Below, one piece after another: positions 1 through 12,450 of a stretch of DNA of 12,539 nucleotides; the first letter of the stretch is position 1, and each line of letters starts with the position of its first letter. The notes below the pieces were generated by a model, which was given only the letters and a program-made list of their open reading frames with translations, was not told where the DNA came from and ran no database searches. The DNA is from Clostridiales bacterium (lineage in GTDB: Bacteria; Bacillota; Clostridia; Lachnospirales; Anaerotignaceae): assembly GCA_021202325.1 (NCBI GenBank), contig JAJQDF010000304.1:1-12539 (forward strand). The letters are read 5' to 3'. Made by a program: the position numbers and the translations under genes.

Positions 1-226
1 CAATGACTGTTATACATACTAATTACCTGAAACAGCAATTTTAAATTTTATACAAATCTCAATTTTGCCGACAGAAGCAGTGAACGCCCGAGGAATTCAC
101 TTCCGAGGACGGCAAAACCTAATGAATAGCCTATGCAAATGCAAAAGTTTCTCCCGGAACTTTTGCATTTGCTTCCAACAGTAAGCGGAAAGCCCTTAAG
201 GATTTTCGCTTAAGCCGCTCTGCGGC
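1..226 (-). repeat. Structured repeat, copy 1 (long form), at the 3' end of the Rrf2 gene
   Basis: The strand given is the sense in which the adjoining gene would be transcribed. Read on the plus strand, an AT-rich left part (1-88) is followed by the box GAGGAATTCACTTCCGA (from 90), a linker ending in AGCC, and three hairpins. Hairpin 1 is a perfect 15-bp stem (135-149 with 158-172, loop 150-157). Hairpin 2 has 13 paired positions with one G-U and one mismatch (182-194 with 200-212). Hairpin 3 is GCCGC-TCT-GCGGC (214-226). TTTTGCCG (63-70) and CGGCAAAA (110-117) also form an 8-bp inverted repeat around the box. Positions 67-111 match the reverse complement of 9444-9488 at 39 of 45 bases, and recognisable similarity continues to the window edge, so the copy may extend outside. 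Hairpin 3 and half of hairpin 2 encode the last residues of the Rrf2 protein. Family unknown to me. Confidence 0.85.
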
Positions 227-624
227 GCCATGAGCTCTGCGAGCGTGATATTTTCAAAAAACTCATCTATCACCTTGTCCAGCTTTACCCACATGGGATA
301 GGTCTTGCATGTATCGACCTTGGAACAGCCCTCCCGGCCGCATTCCAGGCAGGTCACCGGCGCAAGAGATTTTTCGGTAAGCTTGAGTATGGAGCCGACA
401 GTATATGTTTCAGGCTTGCGTGCAAGCTTATATCCGCCGCCCTTTCCTCTGAGGCCGATAACAAAGTGTGCTTTGCTTAGCGACGATACTATACTTTCCA
501 GATATTTTTCCGAAATTTCCTGCCTTTCCGCAATCTCGTTCAGAGTAATATATTCTCCGTTGTCATGCTCGGCTAAATCAATCATAACCCTCAGTGCATA
601 TCTGCCCTTAGTGGAAACCTTCAT
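196..624 (-). CDS. Rrf2/IscR-family transcriptional regulator, probable Fe-S sensor
   Basis: A 142-residue winged-helix DNA-binding regulator of the Rrf2 family (IscR, CymR, NsrR relatives). The N-terminus MKVSTKGRYALRVMIDLA is the family signature, residues about 26-66 form the helix-turn-helix and wing (QEISEKYLESIV, then LRGKGGGYKLAR). Four cysteines (C92, C95, C100, C106) lie where IscR carries its [2Fe-2S] ligands, so redox, Fe-S or sulfur sensing is likely (inference). The start at 624 is chosen because GAGGTG sits 6 nt upstream; the in-frame ATG at 660 lacks such a site and adds 12 residues before the conserved start. It lies 45 nt behind the gene at 670-1140 and is probably co-transcribed. 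Oddity: the C-terminal tail APQSGLSENP is encoded by hairpins 3 and 2 of the adjoining repeat, and the stop codon falls at the loop of hairpin 2. The target genes cannot be told from the sequence. Confidence 0.93.
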   Translation of the reverse strand: MKVSTKGRYALRVMIDLAEHDNGEYITLNEIAERQEISEKYLESIVSSLSKAHFVIGLRGKGGGYKLARKPETYTVGSILKLTEKSLAPVTCLECGREGCSKVDTCKTYPMWVKLDKVIDEFFENITLAELMAPQSGLSENP

Positions 625-669
625 ACAAACCACCTCATTTATCAATTTTATCGGAATCATTTCGCTTAA

Positions 670-5372: not shown

Positions 5373-6512
5373 ATGAAAGTATTTGAGAGCGGAGTATACA
5401 GACCGCCAATGCACGGATACAGCCTTCTGCTGAGGGTTACGGAAAACTGCCCTTGGAACAAATGCCATTTCTGTATGCTCTATAAGGGCACGCAGTTTAG
5501 GACAAGGCCTAACAATATAATACTTGATGAAATAGACAATATAGGTTATATTAAAGACAGCATATTAAGCCATGTGAAGGACGGAAGGCTTGACATGGAT
5601 TCCCTGAATAGGGAATATGCCGCCCTTAGAACCATTGAAGAAAAAGAATGCTATGCCATGGTGTTCAACTGGATTGCCAATAACGGCATGGAATCCATAT
5701 TCCTTCAGGACGGCAACACAATGGTGCTTAAAACTAACAGGCTTCTTGAAATATTGGAGAGAATAAGGCTTCGCCTGCCGGAGCTTAGGATAATTGCGTC
5801 ATACGGCAGAGCGGATACGCTTTGCTTAAAGAGCGCCGAAGAATTCAAGGAGCTGAGGGAAGCTGGACTGAACATGATGCACTGCGGCTACGAAACCGGT
5901 TCTGCCGAAACGCTTAAGCTCATAAACAAGGGCTTTACCGTAGAACAGGAGCTGGAGGCCGGCCATAAGCTTAAAAATGCCGGAATAACAATGAATCTTT
6001 TCTATATGCCGGGCAATGGCGGAAGGAGCGGCTGCATCCGCAACGCCGCCGAAACAGCCCGGGTTGTGAATGATATAGAGCCCGAATATGTGAGGCTCAG
6101 GAGCTTTGTGCTTAAGGAAGGCACTATCCTTCGTGAAATGGAGAGACGGGGCGACTTTGTCAACTGCACAGAAAACGAAAAGGTGGAGGAGCTTAGGACT
6201 TTCTTGGAAAGCCTCAGAAGCCTTAATACCACCATCGTCAGCGACCACATTATAAATCTGCTGGATGTACACGGCCTTGTTAAGACCGATAAGGGCAAAA
6301 TGCTTGGCCTGATTGACGGCTATCTTGCCCTTCCGGAGGACATTCAGAGGGAGTATCAGCTGGCAAGAAGACGTTTTTACATAAATACGCCTACTGATAT
6401 GGAGCAATTGGGAGCCGGCGAGAGAAGCTATATAAAGAGGACGGCCGACAGCATATCGGATAAAAACGAGTGGGAAAGTTTGATGAGGTCGTACCTGGAA
6501 CATATGATCTGA
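5373..6512 (+). CDS. Radical SAM protein with a CX4CX2C cluster motif
   Basis: A 379-residue radical SAM enzyme. The cluster motif is NCPWNKCHFCMLYKG, with C26, C31 and C34 spaced C-x4-C-x2-C instead of the classical C-x3-C-x2-C. Later elements of the TIM barrel are IIASYGRADTLCLKS, LNMMHCGYETGSAETLKLINKGF and a glycine-rich FYMPGNGGRSG stretch, followed by a C-terminal helical domain (LLDVHGLVKTDKGKMLGLID). The pattern resembles the HemN/Elp3-like superfamily branch annotated generically as radical SAM protein. I cannot assign a substrate. It is last in the run that starts at 1382; GAGGAA precedes the ATG. Its stop codon lies inside the left arm of the terminal inverted repeat of the folded segment 6505-6680. 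Confidence 0.93.
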   Translation: MKVFESGVYRPPMHGYSLLLRVTENCPWNKCHFCMLYKGTQFRTRPNNIILDEIDNIGYIKDSILSHVKDGRLDMDSLNREYAALRTIEEKECYAMVFNWIANNGMESIFLQDGNTMVLKTNRLLEILERIRLRLPELRIIASYGRADTLCLKSAEEFKELREAGLNMMHCGYETGSAETLKLINKGFTVEQELEAGHKLKNAGITMNLFYMPGNGGRSGCIRNAAETARVVNDIEPEYVRLRSFVLKEGTILREMERRGDFVNCTENEKVEELRTFLESLRSLNTTIVSDHIINLLDVHGLVKTDKGKMLGLIDGYLALPEDIQREYQLARRRFYINTPTDMEQLGAGERSYIKRTADSISDKNEWESLMRSYLEHMI

Positions 6513-6680
6513 CGCAAAAAGTTTCCAAAGTCATAATCGGGTGCTGGCACCCAGATTTATGACCTTGGAAACTGCAAGAACATGAGAACGTAGCCATTTT
6601 TCATAGAAAAATGAGCGGGTTCGAATGGTTTAGGATTTCGAGAACGTTTAGCGTGGAGAAATCCATATTGCGTCATATCA
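6505..6680 (+). ncRNA. Candidate structured RNA or small mobile element
   Basis: The segment is closed by a 13-nt inverted repeat with one mismatch: TGATCTGACGCAA (6505-6517) with TTGCGTCATATCA (6668-6680). Inside are three hairpins. The first spans 6521-6572: outer arms GTTTCCAA/TTGGAAAC, then GTCATAA/TTATGAC, then GGGTGC/GCACCC around the tip. The second is a perfect 8-bp stem CATTTTTC/GAAAAATG (6595-6602 with 6606-6613, loop ATA). The third is GGATTTC/GAAATCC (6633-6639 with 6658-6664). GAGAACGTAGC (6584-6594) recurs as GAGAACGTTTAGC (6640-6652). No U-tract follows, and no ORF fits. Multi-stem folding with a closing stem suggests a non-coding RNA; the strand is assumed from both neighbours being on plus. 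A MITE-like element is the main alternative. The rest of the 6513-6758 gap shows only the AAAGGGG ribosome site of the next gene. Confidence 0.5.
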
Positions 6681-8085: not shown

Positions 8086-8628
8086 ATGATAACAAGAGAC
8101 GAGGCGTGGGCACTGCTCACCGAATATAATCAGGATCCGTTCCATTTGGAGCATGCGGAAATTGTTGAGGGTACTATGAGGTACTTTGCCAAGAAGCTGG
8201 GATATGACGAGGATTTCTGGGGAATTGTCGGACTTCTTCACGACCTGGATTTTGAAAAATATCCCGAACAACACTGCATAAAGGAGCAGGAAATAATGCG
8301 TGAAAGAGGCATTGACGAGGCCATTATCCATGCAACGGCAAGCCACGGCTACGGTTTGGCATCTGACATAAAGCCTGAGCATGAGATGGAGAAGGTTCTC
8401 TATGCCGTTGATGAGCTGACGGGACTTATCGGTGCCGTTGCCATAATGCGCCCGTCAAAGAGCGTACAGGATTTGGAGCTGAAATCGGTTAAAAAGAAAT
8501 TCAAAACGCCAAAATTTGCGGCCGGCTGTTCCCGTGAGGTAATACAAAACGGCGCAGATATGCTGGGCTGGACGCTGGACGAGCTCATCGAGAGAACAAT
8601 TGCGGCGCTCAGAACATTCAGACCTTAA
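8086..8628 (+). CDS. HD-domain protein, putative phosphohydrolase
   Basis: A 180-residue HD superfamily protein of the HDIG-like small type. Metal-ligand candidates are H23 (HAEIVEGTMRYFAKKLG), H52-D53 (GLLHDLDFEKYPEQH), H82 and H87 (IIHATASHGYG) and D109 (LYAVDELTG). The domain fills nearly the whole protein, and the C-terminus (NGADMLGWTLDELIERTI) is a conserved helical end. It is probably a metal-dependent phosphohydrolase of unknown substrate. A strong AGGAGGG site lies upstream of the ATG. Only 13 nt separate it from tcdA, so the two are co-translated from one mRNA; no functional link is evident from the family. Confidence 0.9.
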   Translation: MITRDEAWALLTEYNQDPFHLEHAEIVEGTMRYFAKKLGYDEDFWGIVGLLHDLDFEKYPEQHCIKEQEIMRERGIDEAIIHATASHGYGLASDIKPEHEMEKVLYAVDELTGLIGAVAIMRPSKSVQDLELKSVKKKFKTPKFAAGCSREVIQNGADMLGWTLDELIERTIAALRTFRP

Positions 8629-8641
8629 AAAGGTGGGTACA

Positions 8642-9355
8642 ATGTCAGATAGATTTTCGAGAACGGAGCTTCTTTTGGGAGCGGAAAACATGGAAAAGCT
8701 GGCCAATGCACGGGTTGCGGTATTCGGAATTGGCGGTGTGGGCGGCTTTGCTGCCGAAGCCATTGCTAGATGCGGTGTCGGAGCCATGGATATAATAGAT
8801 AACGACAGGGTTTCCGAGTCAAACATAAACAGGCAGATTATTGCGCTAAGCAGCACCGTCGGCAGATACAAAACCGATGTTATGAAAGAGCGCCTGCTGG
8901 ACATAAATCCCGATCTAAGGCTTACGGTGCACAACTGCTTTTATCTGCCGGAAACTGCGGACGAATTTGATTTTTCCGAGTATTCCTATGTAGTTGATGC
9001 GGTGGATACGGTTACGGCAAAGATTGACATAATCGTGCGTTGCAAGGCACTTAATGTGCCGGTCATAAGCTGTATGGGCGCCGGAAATAAGTTGGATCCG
9101 ACTATGCTTGAGGTGTCGGATATATATAAAACATCGGTTTGTCCCCTTGCCAAGGTTATGCGCCGGGAGCTTAAAAAACGGGGTATAGACAGCCTGAAGG
9201 TGGTATATTCCAAGGAGGAGCCCATAAAGCATAAGTGTGCCGCTAAAGAGCAAACCGGCAGACGAGCCATTCCGGGCAGTGTATCATTTGTGCCGTCAGT
9301 GGCGGGGCTGATAATGGCGGGAGAGGTAGTAAGAGAGCTGACGCTGTTAGGATGA
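8642..9355 (+). CDS. tcdA: TcdA, tRNA threonylcarbamoyladenosine dehydratase (E1-like)
   Basis: A 237-residue ThiF/E1-like adenylating enzyme (CsdL/YgdL type) that cyclises t6A37 of tRNA to ct6A using ATP. It opens with DRFSRTELLLGAENMEKL. The nucleotide-binding loop is FGIGGVGGFAAEA (28-40), DNDRVSESNINRQ (53-65) contains the conserved Asp and Arg, VVDAVDTVTAKI (117-128) is the acidic strand, SCMGAGNKLDP (143-153) follows, and SFVPSVAGLIMAGEVVREL closes the fold. Length is normal, though somewhat short of E. coli TcdA. The start at 8642 is chosen because AAAGGTGGG precedes it and the family begins there; an upstream in-frame ATG at 8600 overlaps the HD gene. The stop TGA (9353-9355) lies in a perfect hairpin that begins repeat copy 4. 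Rhodanese upstream recalls the sulfurtransferase link of csdL in E. coli. Confidence 0.94.
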   Translation: MSDRFSRTELLLGAENMEKLANARVAVFGIGGVGGFAAEAIARCGVGAMDIIDNDRVSESNINRQIIALSSTVGRYKTDVMKERLLDINPDLRLTVHNCFYLPETADEFDFSEYSYVVDAVDTVTAKIDIIVRCKALNVPVISCMGAGNKLDPTMLEVSDIYKTSVCPLAKVMRRELKKRGIDSLKVVYSKEEPIKHKCAAKEQTGRRAIPGSVSFVPSVAGLIMAGEVVRELTLLG

Positions 9356-9548
9356 AATCTGCGATTTCATCCTGTAACGGGGGCAAATGCAAAAGTTCCA
9401 CGAGAAACTTTTGCATTTGCAGTGGCTGTGTTTTATGCATAGACGTCCTCGGAAGTGAATTCTTTGGACGATTACTGCTTCTGTCGGTAAAACTGAAGTT
9501 TGTACAAAATATAAAGTTATCGTTTTCGAGTAACTATTATGTTTAACA
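9349..9548 (+). repeat. Structured repeat, copy 4 (long form, inverted), fused to the tcdA stop
   Basis: Inverted relative to the other three copies and read here in the tcdA sense. Hairpin 2 comes first, AGGATGAAAT/ATTTCATCCT (9349-9358 with 9364-9373, 10 bp perfect), and its left arm contains the tcdA stop. Hairpin 1 (9383-9397 with 9406-9420) has the same 15-bp arms as copy 1. The box complement CGGAAGTGAATTC follows near 9450-9462, then an AT-rich part matching 1-88 of the window in reverse complement, with only scattered substitutions and small gaps, up to about 9548. Hairpin 3 is weak or absent. A 64-codon reading frame here (9352-9546) is not considered a gene. The whole 9356-9836 gap between the convergent genes is filled by copies 4, 2 and 3. 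Confidence 0.85.
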
Positions 9549-9558
9549 GACACCGCTT

Positions 9559-9694
9559 GAGGAATTTATTTCCGAAAGTGCCGAGGCTTAGGTAGTAGCC
9601 AATGCAAATTGAAAAGTTTCAAGGGAACTTTTCAATCTGTCGCCGCAATAAGCTGAAATCTCCCAAAGATTTCAGCTTACACGGCTCTGCCGTG
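9559..9694 (-). repeat. Structured repeat, copy 2 (short form)
   Basis: On the plus strand: box variant GAGGAATTTATTTCCGA (9559-9575), a linker ending AGCC, and hairpin 1 ATTGAAAAGTT/AACTTTTCAAT (9608-9618 with 9626-9636, 11 bp). Hairpin 2 is TAAGCTGAAATCT/AGATTTCAGCTTA (9649-9661 with 9667-9679, 13 bp perfect). Hairpin 3 is CACGGC-TCT-GCCGTG (9680-9694). The AT-rich left part of copies 1 and 4 is missing; copy 4 abuts it instead. No gene ends on this copy. It stands in tandem with copy 3, so it may be a duplication. Confidence 0.85.
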
Positions 9695-9701
9695 GCCGCC
9701 T

Positions 9702-9845
9702 GAGGAATTCACTTCCGAAGGTGTCAACGCATAGAAAACAGCCAAAGTAAAAGCCAATGTTTCGATGATTTTACGGAACATTGGCTTTTACTGCCGCCAG
9801 TAAGCAGAAATTCACAGGAATTTCTGCTTAAAGCGCTCAGCGCTT
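9702..9845 (-). repeat. Structured repeat, copy 3 (short form), fused to the xanthine dehydrogenase stop
   Basis: On the plus strand: box GAGGAATTCACTTCCGA (9702-9718) and a linker ending in AGCC before hairpin 1, which has a perfect 16-bp stem (9746-9761 with 9777-9792) and a 15-nt loop. Hairpin 2 is TAAGCAGAAATTC/GAATTTCTGCTTA (9801-9813 with 9818-9830, 13 bp perfect). Hairpin 3 is AAGCGC-TCA-GCGCTT (9831-9845). Its loop is, on the minus strand, the TGA stop of the xanthine dehydrogenase gene. Stems differ in sequence from copies 1 and 2 but remain paired. Confidence 0.87.
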
Positions 9846-12389
9846 ATAAGGAGTATTTTCCAGCGGCAATTTTGTCCTAAACTCCCTATCCTTATTGTAA
9901 TACGCAAGCTGTACCGCAGGGGCAGTGGGTATGGAGGCAATTTCGCCTATGCCCTTGGCTCCGCAGGCAAGGCCGCCTATGTTTTTGCCTACGATTATGG
10001 ACTCCAGCTCAGGGGTTTTATCGGCTCTGAAAAGCCCCAAAGTTCCGTATTTGGCCAATGGCTTGCCGTTTTCAAGCGGATAGTCCTCGGTCAGGGCATA
10101 GCCCAGACTCATCACAACTCCGCCTTCTATCTGTCCTTCCACTGACTTGGGATTTACCGCTGTTCCCACATCGTGGACGGCCACAACCCTCTTCAACGTT
10201 CCGTCGTCGTTTAACTCCACTAGGTGCGTGGCATAGCCGTAGGCTATATGGCTGACGGGATTTTCTTTGTCTGAACCCATTTTGTCTGTAATTCCCGTGT
10301 ATTCGCCGAAAAACTCACGGCCGTTTAGGGCTTCCAGCGTTCCGGCCTCATCCAATGCTTTTTTAAGCTCTTTGGCGGCTCTCACAACGGCTTCGCCTGT
10401 GAAAAGCGTCTGCCTGGATGCCGTTGTGTTGCCCGAATCCGGCGAAAACTTTGTGTCCGGGGTGTCGTATATTATATTTTCATGGGAAATTCCCGTTGTT
10501 TCGCATATCATCTGTATCTGTACCGTTCCCATGCCCTGACCAATGCAGGCCGCAGAGGATGTGACATGTACAATGCCGTCCTTAACGGTTATACGACAGC
10601 GCCCGGTGTCCGGTATTCCTACGCCTAAACCGCTGTTTTTGAGGGCGCAGGCGATTCCTGCTTTGGGATTTTTCTCGTAAATATCCCGTACCGCATCAAG
10701 AGTTTCCACCAGCGCTGTGCTTTCATCGGCAATCTGTCCGTTGGGCAGTATGTCGCCGGGACGAAGGGCGTTGCGGTAGCGTATCTCAAAGGAGGATATG
10801 CCCACCATCTCCGCCAGCTGATTTATGTTGCATTCCGTGGCGAAACAGCTCTGGGTAACACCGAAGCCCCTAAACGCTCCGGCCGGGGGATTGTTGGTGT
10901 AATAAGCCTTGCCGGTAATGTCTATGACCTGATAATTGTAAGGCCCGGCGGCATGGGTGCAGGCTCTCTGCAGAACCGGTCCGCCAAGACTGGCATAGGC
11001 GCCTGTGTCGGATATTATGACGGCCTTCATCGCCGTAAGATAGCCATTTTCGTCGCAGGCCGTGGTGAAATCCATTTCCATGGCGTGCCGCTTCGGATGA
11101 ACGAGTATGCTTTCCTGCCTTGTCAGCTTAACCTTTACAGGACGGCCTGTTTTCTGCGCCAAAAGTGCGGCGTGGTGCTGTACGCTCATGTCCTCCTTGC
11201 CTCCGAAGCCGCCGCCGACCATTGCGGCCGATACTCTAACCTTTTCAAGCGGCAGTCCTGTGGCATCGGAACATTCACGCCTTGTCTGATATATGCCCTG
11301 GTCGCCGCTGATTATGTGTATGCCTCCGTCCTCCGGAAAGGCTACGGCGCATTCGGGCTCCATGAAAGCGTGTTCCGTAAAGGGAACGCTGTAGTGATTC
11401 GTAACCTTGTATTTGCTTTTCGCTATGACCTCATCGGCATTTCCTCTAACTAAATGCTCGGAAGCCAAAAGATTGCCGTCCTCATGGAGAAGGGGCGCTC
11501 CCTCCTTCATGGAATCTGCCGGCGAAAATATTCCCTCTAAGGGCTCATATTCCACCTTTATAAGCTTTTTGACCGTATCTAAAGCCCGTTGATTTTCGGC
11601 GGCAATAAGCACAATGGCATCGCCTAAATAGTGGGTTGTTCCGCCGATAGGGATAAGCACATCCCAGTCACGTTTAAGATGGCCGACCTTCTGGGTTCCG
11701 GGAATGTCCTCGGCTCCCATTATGCATACTACGCCCTCAACCTTTTCGGCCTCGGATTTGTCTATCGAAAGGACTTTGGCTCTCGGATATTCGCTTCTAA
11801 GCGCCGAGCCCACAAGCATGTTTTCCATGTAGAAATCATCGGCATATTTGGCTGTGCCCAGTGCCTTTGCTTCGGCATCCACCCTGTGTATGTTTTCGCC
11901 CAAAAGCCCGATGTATTCTGTCTTTTTGACGGGTTTGTTTTCCCTCAGTATTTCGGCGGCTAAAGATATTGCCTCCTCAATTTTTTTGTAGCCGGTACAG
12001 CGGCATATGTTGCCCCTTATTGCGGTCTTTATATCCTCTGTTGTAGGACTTAAATTTTTGTCCAGCAAAGCCTTGGCGCACATAACCATGCCGGGTATGC
12101 AGAAGCCGCACTGAACCGCTCCAGCCTCGGAAAAGGCAAAGCTGTATACCTCCTTTTCCCTCTCGGTCAGTCCCTCGCATGTGATTATGGTTTTGCCGTC
12201 GAGACGGTCGGTTTTCTGCACGCAGGCTTTCATTGGCTTTCCGTCAATAAGCACTGTACATGCTCCGCAGGCTCCTTCGCTGCATCCGTCCTTCACTGAT
12301 GTAAGGCCTAAGTTTTCCCTCAAAAATGGCATGAGCTTGACGTTTTCGGTAACTGTATATGAAATGCCGTTTACTGTAAATACGGACAT
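9837..12389 (-). CDS. xdh: FAD-less molybdenum hydroxylase, selenium-dependent xanthine dehydrogenase type
   Basis: An 850-residue xanthine-oxidase-family protein that would hydroxylate a purine at a molybdopterin centre. The N-terminal plant-type [2Fe-2S] domain has C36, C41, C44 and C56; the second [2Fe-2S] domain has C94, C97, C129 and C131. From about 160 comes the Moco part: VGGGFGGKED (391-400), GAFRGFG (504-510), GQGMGTVQIQ (617-626) and KGIGE with catalytic E816. E399, R507 and E816 align by motif with bovine XDH E802, R880 and E1261, favouring a purine over an aldehyde. There is no FAD domain, so electrons must leave through a partner or ferredoxin. Architecture and length match the TIGR03311-type selenium-dependent XDH, whose selenium is a labile cofactor, not selenocysteine; FAD-less aldehyde oxidoreductase (Mop) is the alternative. 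The start at 12389 has AAAGGAGG 7 nt upstream; the ATG at 12431 lacks one. The stop is in the loop of repeat hairpin 3. Confidence 0.92.
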   Translation of the reverse strand: MSVFTVNGISYTVTENVKLMPFLRENLGLTSVKDGCSEGACGACTVLIDGKPMKACVQKTDRLDGKTIITCEGLTEREKEVYSFAFSEAGAVQCGFCIPGMVMCAKALLDKNLSPTTEDIKTAIRGNICRCTGYKKIEEAISLAAEILRENKPVKKTEYIGLLGENIHRVDAEAKALGTAKYADDFYMENMLVGSALRSEYPRAKVLSIDKSEAEKVEGVVCIMGAEDIPGTQKVGHLKRDWDVLIPIGGTTHYLGDAIVLIAAENQRALDTVKKLIKVEYEPLEGIFSPADSMKEGAPLLHEDGNLLASEHLVRGNADEVIAKSKYKVTNHYSVPFTEHAFMEPECAVAFPEDGGIHIISGDQGIYQTRRECSDATGLPLEKVRVSAAMVGGGFGGKEDMSVQHHAALLAQKTGRPVKVKLTRQESILVHPKRHAMEMDFTTACDENGYLTAMKAVIISDTGAYASLGGPVLQRACTHAAGPYNYQVIDITGKAYYTNNPPAGAFRGFGVTQSCFATECNINQLAEMVGISSFEIRYRNALRPGDILPNGQIADESTALVETLDAVRDIYEKNPKAGIACALKNSGLGVGIPDTGRCRITVKDGIVHVTSSAACIGQGMGTVQIQMICETTGISHENIIYDTPDTKFSPDSGNTTASRQTLFTGEAVVRAAKELKKALDEAGTLEALNGREFFGEYTGITDKMGSDKENPVSHIAYGYATHLVELNDDGTLKRVVAVHDVGTAVNPKSVEGQIEGGVVMSLGYALTEDYPLENGKPLAKYGTLGLFRADKTPELESIIVGKNIGGLACGAKGIGEIASIPTAPAVQLAYYNKDREFRTKLPLENTPYKR

Positions 12390-12396
12390 GGTATAG

Positions 12397-12450
12397 CCTC
12401 CTTTCAACAGCTCTTTTTTCAATGGTAACACTTTAATGAATGCATTTCAA
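12397..12450 (-). promoter_or_regulatory. Ribosome binding site and possible promoter of the xanthine dehydrogenase gene
   Basis: AAAGGAGG on the minus strand (12397-12404) sits 7 nt before the ATG and decides the start. A modest promoter, TTGAAA (12445-12450), a 17-nt spacer, and TACCAT (12422-12427), lies just upstream; use of it would exclude the ATG at 12431. A second possible -10, TATAAT (12532-12537), is at the window edge, and its -35 would be outside. I see nothing else in 12451-12539. Confidence 0.45.

Follow-up and report, generated by a model that had tools for sequence, protein, structure and literature searches.

The window analysed here is an entire contig (C304) of 12,539 nucleotides, one of the 313 that make up a 1.86 Mb draft genome with 83% completeness. 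It carries four copies of a hairpin repeat, termed halves A, B, C, and D, whose hairpins are numbered hp0 to hp3. Three genes end at these copies. Half A overlaps the 3′ end of an Rrf2 gene (196–660, minus strand), hp2 of half B overlaps the end of a ThiF-family gene (8600–9355, plus strand), and hp3 of half D extends into the end of a xanthine-dehydrogenase-like (XDH) gene (9837–12431, minus strand). The window also holds a Clostridiales-1 RNA (RF01699; 93.9 bits) at 6510–6675 on the plus strand. The repeat features, with covariance-model scores, are as follows.

1–83, plus strand: remnant of an AT-rich centre upstream of half A, truncated by the contig end
84–226, plus strand: half A, 124.6 bits; hp0 85–111, linker, hp1 135–172, hp2 182–212, hp3 214–226
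9347–9471, minus strand: half B, 124.4 bits; hp0 9444–9470, hp1 9383–9420, hp2 9349–9373, without a good hp3
9472–9552, no strand assigned: AT-rich centre of 81 nt, flanked by the head-to-head halves B and C (model end of B at 9471, model start of C at 9553)
9553–9694, plus strand: half C, 113.3 bits; hp0 9554–9580, hp1 9605–9639, hp2 9649–9679, hp3 9680–9694
9696–9845, plus strand: half D, in tandem after C, 118.0 bits; hp0 9697–9723, hp1 9746–9792, hp2 9801–9830, hp3 9831–9845

Halves B (minus) and C (plus) make one head-to-head pair, D is an extra half, and A begins in a cut centre; positions 1–83 plus half A are the mirror image of 9383–9525, with 80% complementarity in an inverted-repeat search. 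A fifth cmsearch match on the opposite strand (9604–9724, 37.9 bits) is a by-product of the palindromes.

The initial annotation of this DNA had located these copies and their hairpins, including a fourth copy without a good hp3, which is half B on the minus strand, and cmsearch finds all four halves at 113.3–124.6 bits. The details it gave are also as described: hp1 stems of 15, 11, and 16 bp closing with GTT...AAC, a sixth pair of hp2 that is G-C, T-A, or A-T, and 3-nt loops in hp3. Its plan of a box, a linker, and three hairpins is right for hairpins 1 to 3 and needs amending at the box, which is itself a hairpin (hp0) with covarying base pairs. The copies do belong to a repeat family, and the unit has to be redrawn in that each copy is a four-hairpin half that in its own genome often stands head-to-head with another (44/86).

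Anatomy and covariation of the half

The comparison covers the own genome (G000), three other species of the same genus (G001, G002, and G003), and a genome from another family of the same order (G120). The unit is a half of about 140–150 bp in which hp0, a linker of about 26 nt, hp1, the linker YTCCRN..AAG, hp2, and hp3 follow one another in fixed order. The apex of hp0 reads GGAA-TTCAY-TTCC and its base covaries; adjoining the apex, an A.G opposition is found in 42 of 59 halves and by eye forms part of a tandem G.A/A.G mismatch. The tips of the hairpins are kept between species (hp0 GGAATTCAYTTCC; hp1 AAAGTTTC..GGAACTTT; hp2 GAAA..TTTC) and the bases of the stems vary, with the linker between hp1 and hp2 conserved within the genus. 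The tips are not absolute, since some G003 halves have a very different hp0 tip (GGGAGCTTTGCCC) and the hp1 tip is variable in some copies from the own genome and G003. In G120 the same three tips recur with the hp0–hp1 linker nearly absent, in copies of about 205 bp (eight of the nine copies were inspected), the clearest of which carries matched terminal repeats, CAGGGCAAACCCATGAA / TTCATGGGTTTGCCCTG. The elements of the genus show mirror symmetry only between the two halves of a pair; matched ends, that is, terminal inverted repeats, are clear in some of the eight inspected G120 copies.

Other palindromes are found in or beside the halves. One (GCCGTTTGACTTAAGAAT...) replaces hp1 or sits within it in several halves of G000 (C69:2631–2862, C157:981–1211, C203:109–266, and near 9095 of C8). 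Insertion of a second palindromic element into hp1 was considered for these and set aside, as the replacement hairpin in C203 looks complete by itself when inspected by eye. Halves at L014 (C125), L096/L026 (C73), L004 (C135), and L090 (C180) have beside them an array of small palindromes of another kind, either TTTGAGGCAGAGCCTCAAA, CAGGGATAGCATCCCTG, GAAAAACTTCGTTTTTC or only some of its parts.

Covariation was scored on an alignment of 59 halves (54 from the own genome and 5 from G003) with a 34-pair structure derived from the same halves. Paired cells make up 97.0% of this alignment, 25 of the 34 pairs have changes on both sides, and one pair in hp1 occurs as all four Watson–Crick types (16, 16, 13, and 11 of 59). 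The covariation score is 0.489, against a mean of 0.148 for shuffled alignments and at most 0.094 for slid partners, and the real alignment beats all 500 shuffles on every measure as well as every slid control. A chance origin is rejected on this result and on the cmsearch scores of the halves in the window. A set of 76 matches from G001 and G003, of which 71 lay outside model building, gives 96.8% of cells paired and a score of 0.574 against 0.151; a further set that includes G120 (55 matches, 37 chosen sources) scores 0.604 against 0.154. Both of these sets were aligned by fitting to the model, and their counts lean its way; a few antisense or cut-off matches remain among those from G001 and G003. 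The evidence for covariation is strong, yet because the alignments are model-fitted and the shuffles keep the relatedness among copies, these tests are not independent proofs.

The wobble pairs carry information about the strand that folds. On the box strand of hp1, G.T exceeds A.C by 46:11 distinct contexts over three species (27:7, 15:2, and 4:2) under symmetrical scoring, a count that includes a constant T.G beside the tip; without it, on the 59 halves, the ratio is 31:5. For hp0 the ratio is 21:14 overall, with G003 reversed (5:8), and for hp2 it is 15:16, neither being a clear strand bias. Only hp1 speaks for a single folding strand, the one that reads hp0 first and hp3 last and is antisense to the gene that usually adjoins a half.

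The way in which stems change also bears on how they came to be paired. Linkage among the stem types of hp0, hp1, and hp2 was not detected in 82 own-genome halves (p 0.40, 0.57, and 0.25), in a test of low power with up to 27 × 40 types, many of them rare. Unlinked stem types imply that whole hairpins may move as cassettes, and the exchange of whole hairpins between copies may account for part of what looks like compensation. Hairpins resembling hp2 are found outside the counted halves, five in G000 and one in G003; the G000 count excludes C84:1742, C203:59, and C233:3052, which lie in dropped rows (eight were listed before). The own genome has 14 distinct outer hp1 stems that are paired throughout. 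In four pairs of these stems the only difference is a single base pair, altered in both arms, as expected from true compensation and from templated repair alike. The initial annotation took the paired changes as direct evidence of selection for structure. Paired changes over many copies and species are borne out, and the conserved tips and linkers and the wobble excess, seen in hp1 only, speak for selection. As direct evidence, however, the claim is too strong in the light of the unlinked stem types and of only four one-pair differences among the 14 hp1 stems.

Arrangement, placement, and distribution

A second box on the other strand is often present upstream of a box. Arrangement was counted in 157 halves from three species, obtained from 176 aligned hits by removing overlaps (leaving 170) and then rows shorter than 100 nt and three poor rows; a stricter earlier filter kept 123 halves. 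Neighbouring halves form 31 head-to-head pairs, 10 tandem pairs, and 0 tail-to-tail pairs. A head-to-head partner lies within 600 bp for 60 of the 157 halves (44/86 in G000, 8/49 in G003, and 8/22 in G001), with a start-to-end distance of 74–84 in 36 of the 44 paired own-genome halves and 163–231 in the remaining 8. A locus in G001 (L140:12554–12996) has three tandem halves behind one gene, which we take, from its C-terminus, to encode a gyrase subunit; one half is found at the orthologous gene end in G003.

The halves are placed at the ends of genes. On simple longest-ORF calls, and as raw counts rather than as an excess over chance, 111 of 157 halves (65/86 in G000, 35/49 in G003, and 11/22 in G001) have a convergent gene on the far side of hp3 at a distance of up to 250 nt, and 14, 8, and 7 halves, respectively, have a co-directional gene there within the same distance. 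Counted in the same raw way, a convergent stop codon lies between −20 and +25 nt of the end of hp2 in 43/86 halves of G000, 28/49 of G003, and 9/22 of G001; in 21, 5, and 1 of these it falls inside hp2 by 4 nt or more; a co-directional start codon lies within 25 nt in 0, 2, and 3. The Rrf2 protein of the window illustrates such an end. It finishes with ...APQSGLSENP, encoded by hp3 and hp2, while a 96% identical relative ends in APQSGLS and an 80% identical relative in LVNREIK. Of the 8 G120 copies inspected, 4 have a gene beyond hp3 with the same direction as the element, and only 2 have a convergent stop codon no more than 25 nt from the right end.

A possible terminator signal follows hp0 when it is read in the sense of the gene. 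At least five T residues occur in the 9 nt after hp0 in 36/49 halves of G003, 10/22 of G001, and 30/82 of G000. A control place gives 5/49, 2/22, and 20/82 when it is taken from the same strand, and 9, 2, and 14 when it is taken from the opposite one. Graded on these counts, a terminator role for hp0 appears likely in G003, possible in G001, and weakly indicated in G000. A terminator scan of positions 9300–9900 of the window found none. A promoter in the AT-rich centre was also considered and dropped, as a scan of the window found none.

The initial annotation had proposed a covariance-model search of the host genome and its relatives. Model R1 at E ≤ 0.001 gives 97 matches in G000, 67 in G003, 26 in G001, and 1 weak match in G002, a few of them on the opposite strand or partial, and G120 has 9 matches at E ≤ 0.01. 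In blastn searches, half D finds a single weak hit among 40 genomes besides its own, in G003, with none in G001 or G002; window positions 8600–11000 find two element hits within the genus, both in G003, and again none in G001 or G002. These results point to species-specific subfamilies.

Searches across more than 40 genomes used stricter filters. In a search of 58 genomes from the family, six that lie outside the genus gave hits, all of them weak (best 3.1e-6), and among 295 genomes of the order, at E ≤ 1e-5, matches are confined to G000, G001, G003, and G120. The G120 copies (L195–L203) represent a compact relative, and some, judged by eye, immediately precede promoter-like sequence. Model R2 at E ≤ 1e-5 across 391 genomes of the class, a sample that apparently does not include G001, G003, and G120, matches the own genome and gives one weak match in G633. 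The G633 site (L204) is a lone multi-hairpin with the hp1 tip AAAAAGTTTC..GGAACTTTTT and may be due to chance. The exact box pattern gives two hits in the genome_contigs collection (from which the own genome may have been excluded), in a planctomycete and in Roseibium, both taken as chance, and a longer exact box pattern has no match in viral contigs. An origin from phages or plasmids is rejected, with blastn of window positions 9345–9850 at E ≤ 1e-5 finding nothing in 50,697 phage or 72,556 plasmid records.

Membership in a known Rfam RNA is likewise rejected. With a cutoff of E = 1, the element in the window matches nothing in Rfam, and other loci yield only five hits, far under the gathering score (L195, L142, L150, L006, and L204). 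The earlier remark that no named repeat is known with this plan agrees with the Rfam search, which produced no fitting family. The four-hairpin plan was also not recognised in the open-access papers covered by the literature searches, most of them represented by title and opening of the abstract.

Relation to known repeats and the best explanation

REPs are presented in the portions of the literature cited here as single palindromes of 20–40 bp with a tag tetranucleotide, the GTAG types having an associated transposase (PMC3733652, PMC2817692); they occur as head-to-head pairs and supply stop codons to genes (PMC3733652). The present family resembles REPs and BIMEs, as those portions describe them, in its many intergenic palindromes that are mostly head-to-head, touch genes, give stop codons, and fall into species-specific types (PMC3733652, PMC2817692); dimers here are indeed mainly head-to-head. 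It differs in having four hairpins in about 140–150 bp, no common tag, and no Y1 transposase in G000 or G001. Inspection of the alignments by eye finds no constant GTAG or CGTC tag at the foot of the palindromes, with CGTC present only in part of the hp0 feet of G000. Since the REP tags are absent and a REP enzyme is unproven, the family is not filed as REP; it may belong among the MITEs.

Other families share some of these attributes. The BOX, RUP, and SPRITE repeats of Streptococcus pneumoniae are small, interspersed, and foldable as RNA, BOX being modular and SPRITE terminator-like, but they are set apart by their description, which has another module plan and, in the portion cited, no stem covariation (PMC3049150). 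Bcr1 and other stem-loop families are structured intergenic repeats, mostly of 31–200 bp and some in Firmicutes; they too are set apart by description, the present plan not being shown in the portion cited (PMC2267715). The hairpin elements of sponge mitochondria (RHE), and the double-hairpin elements of Allomyces mitochondria that are grouped with them, are portrayed in the cited portion as hairpin repeats limited to related species and thought to be mobile (PMC2800124 and, for Allomyces, work cited there). In the sponge elements, however, the stems are conserved and the loops vary, whereas here the tips are conserved and the stems vary (PMC2800124).

The swings in copy number within the genus, together with the species-specific subfamilies, argue for mobility. 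A half is present at the XDH 3′ end in G000 and G003 and absent there in G002; in G001 no half lies within the 96 nt left before the contig end. Seven gene ends have a half in two species, four shared by G000 and G003 and three by G001 and G003, at protein identities of 59–92%, the lowest (59%) belonging to one of the three G001–G003 ends. When elements are compared at shared ends with more than 55% protein identity, they rank from the 7th to the 98th percentile from the top among cross-species pairs, C307/C26 lying in the top 7%. Clean vertical descent at these ends is rejected, as most of the elements resemble one another no more closely than cross-species pairs drawn at random. Either repeated landing at favoured gene ends or complete turnover would account for the pattern, and retention with a host function is also possible.

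A search for Y1_Tnp and RVT_1 found no autonomous partner in the genus. Y1_Tnp is missing from G000 (a draft that is 83% complete) and from G001, occurs once with an internal stop in G003, and is present as broken pieces in G002; RVT_1, a reverse transcriptase, is found only in G002 among G000–G003. The G003 gene (L193, on contig C94) encodes a short transposase of the IS200 type; it is interrupted by one internal stop and seems, by eye, to have end hairpins of its own. No half is on C94 among the G003 matches listed (53 of 67).

The best explanation, which we hold to be moderately probable, is that this is a small non-coding, non-autonomous family of mobile repeats of the REP/BIME/MITE kind, recognised by its folded shape, which on landing becomes the 3′ UTR and terminator of a gene. 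The anatomy, covariation, copy numbers, placement, and T tract of G003 are computed; mobility and recognition of the folded form we infer. Because the tips and linkers are conserved and the stems are free as long as they stay paired, a mobilising or binding factor would read the folded strand, either ssDNA or RNA, through its tips and geometry. The element tends to lie immediately after a stop codon, with hp3 facing the gene. Transcribed along with that gene, it would form the 3′ UTR in the order hp3–hp2–hp1–hp0, which in G003 would finish with hp0 and the T tract, as in an intrinsic terminator. A bolder form of this account is possible, if on the doubtful side: a mobile 3′-end cartridge in which tips and geometry are recognised, stems drift while paired, hairpins are swapped as cassettes, and landing gives a stop codon, a 3′ UTR, and a terminator, with an enzyme of a kind new to such repeats.

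Several alternatives need to be weighed against a mobile repeat. It is unlikely that the element is instead a host-useful 3′-UTR RNA module, with hp3, hp2, and hp1 protecting or processing the mRNA end, hp0 and its T tract terminating transcription, and recombination making copies that selection keeps. Such a module would suit the excess of T tracts after hp0 over same-strand controls in G003, G001, and G000, the orientation towards convergent stop codons, and the differing hp0 tip of some G003 halves, which looks as if the terminator hairpin alone were needed. Yet the preference for G.T over A.C on the box strand of hp1 means mismatches in the gene-sense RNA, the scan of the window shows no terminator at 9300–9900, and the T-tract excess in G000 is small. 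Match numbers that swing from 97 through 67 and 26 to 1 within a genus, along with the G120 copies in which half of the neighbouring genes are co-directional and few have a convergent stop nearby, also sit poorly with a host module.

Distinctly less credible is a neutral account in which templated repair or template switching between arms, combined with swaps of whole hairpins, keeps the palindromes paired without selection. The unlinked stem types of the 82 own-genome halves agree with it, as do the extra hp2-like hairpins outside the counted halves and the lack of strand bias in hp2. It has to contend with tips and non-palindromic linkers that are conserved over three species (the tips in G120 as well), with the G.T excess in hp1, and with a hairpin order and spacing that are kept, and the linkage test on which it draws is weak. 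Finally, it is very improbable that this is a REP/IS200-type system in which a Y1 (RAYT-like) transposase acts on the halves and happens to be absent from the drafts. Mainly head-to-head palindromes that give genes their stop codons recall the REPs of the cited portion (PMC3733652), and recognition of a single folded strand would suit the strand bias seen in hp1; against this stand the lack of a family-wide GTAG or CGTC tag by eye, the absence of Y1_Tnp from G000 and G001, and a G003 Y1 gene that is short, IS200-like, and on a contig with no half among the matches listed.

The repeat family is real, unnamed, and structure-keeping. Most likely it is mobile and REP/MITE-like and serves secondarily as 3′ UTR and terminator. 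The mobile element and the 3′-UTR module, both offered as functions in the initial annotation, each receive some support, possibly jointly. Sequence is the usual means of recognising small interspersed repeats; in this family the folded form outlives it, as blastn with half D finds nothing in G001 where the covariance model finds 26 matches. Rfam is without a model for the family, which offers a natural test of what keeps palindromes paired, be it selection on a folded strand, templated repair, or cassette exchange. Mobile DNA seems in this one lineage to remodel the 3′ ends of dozens of genes.
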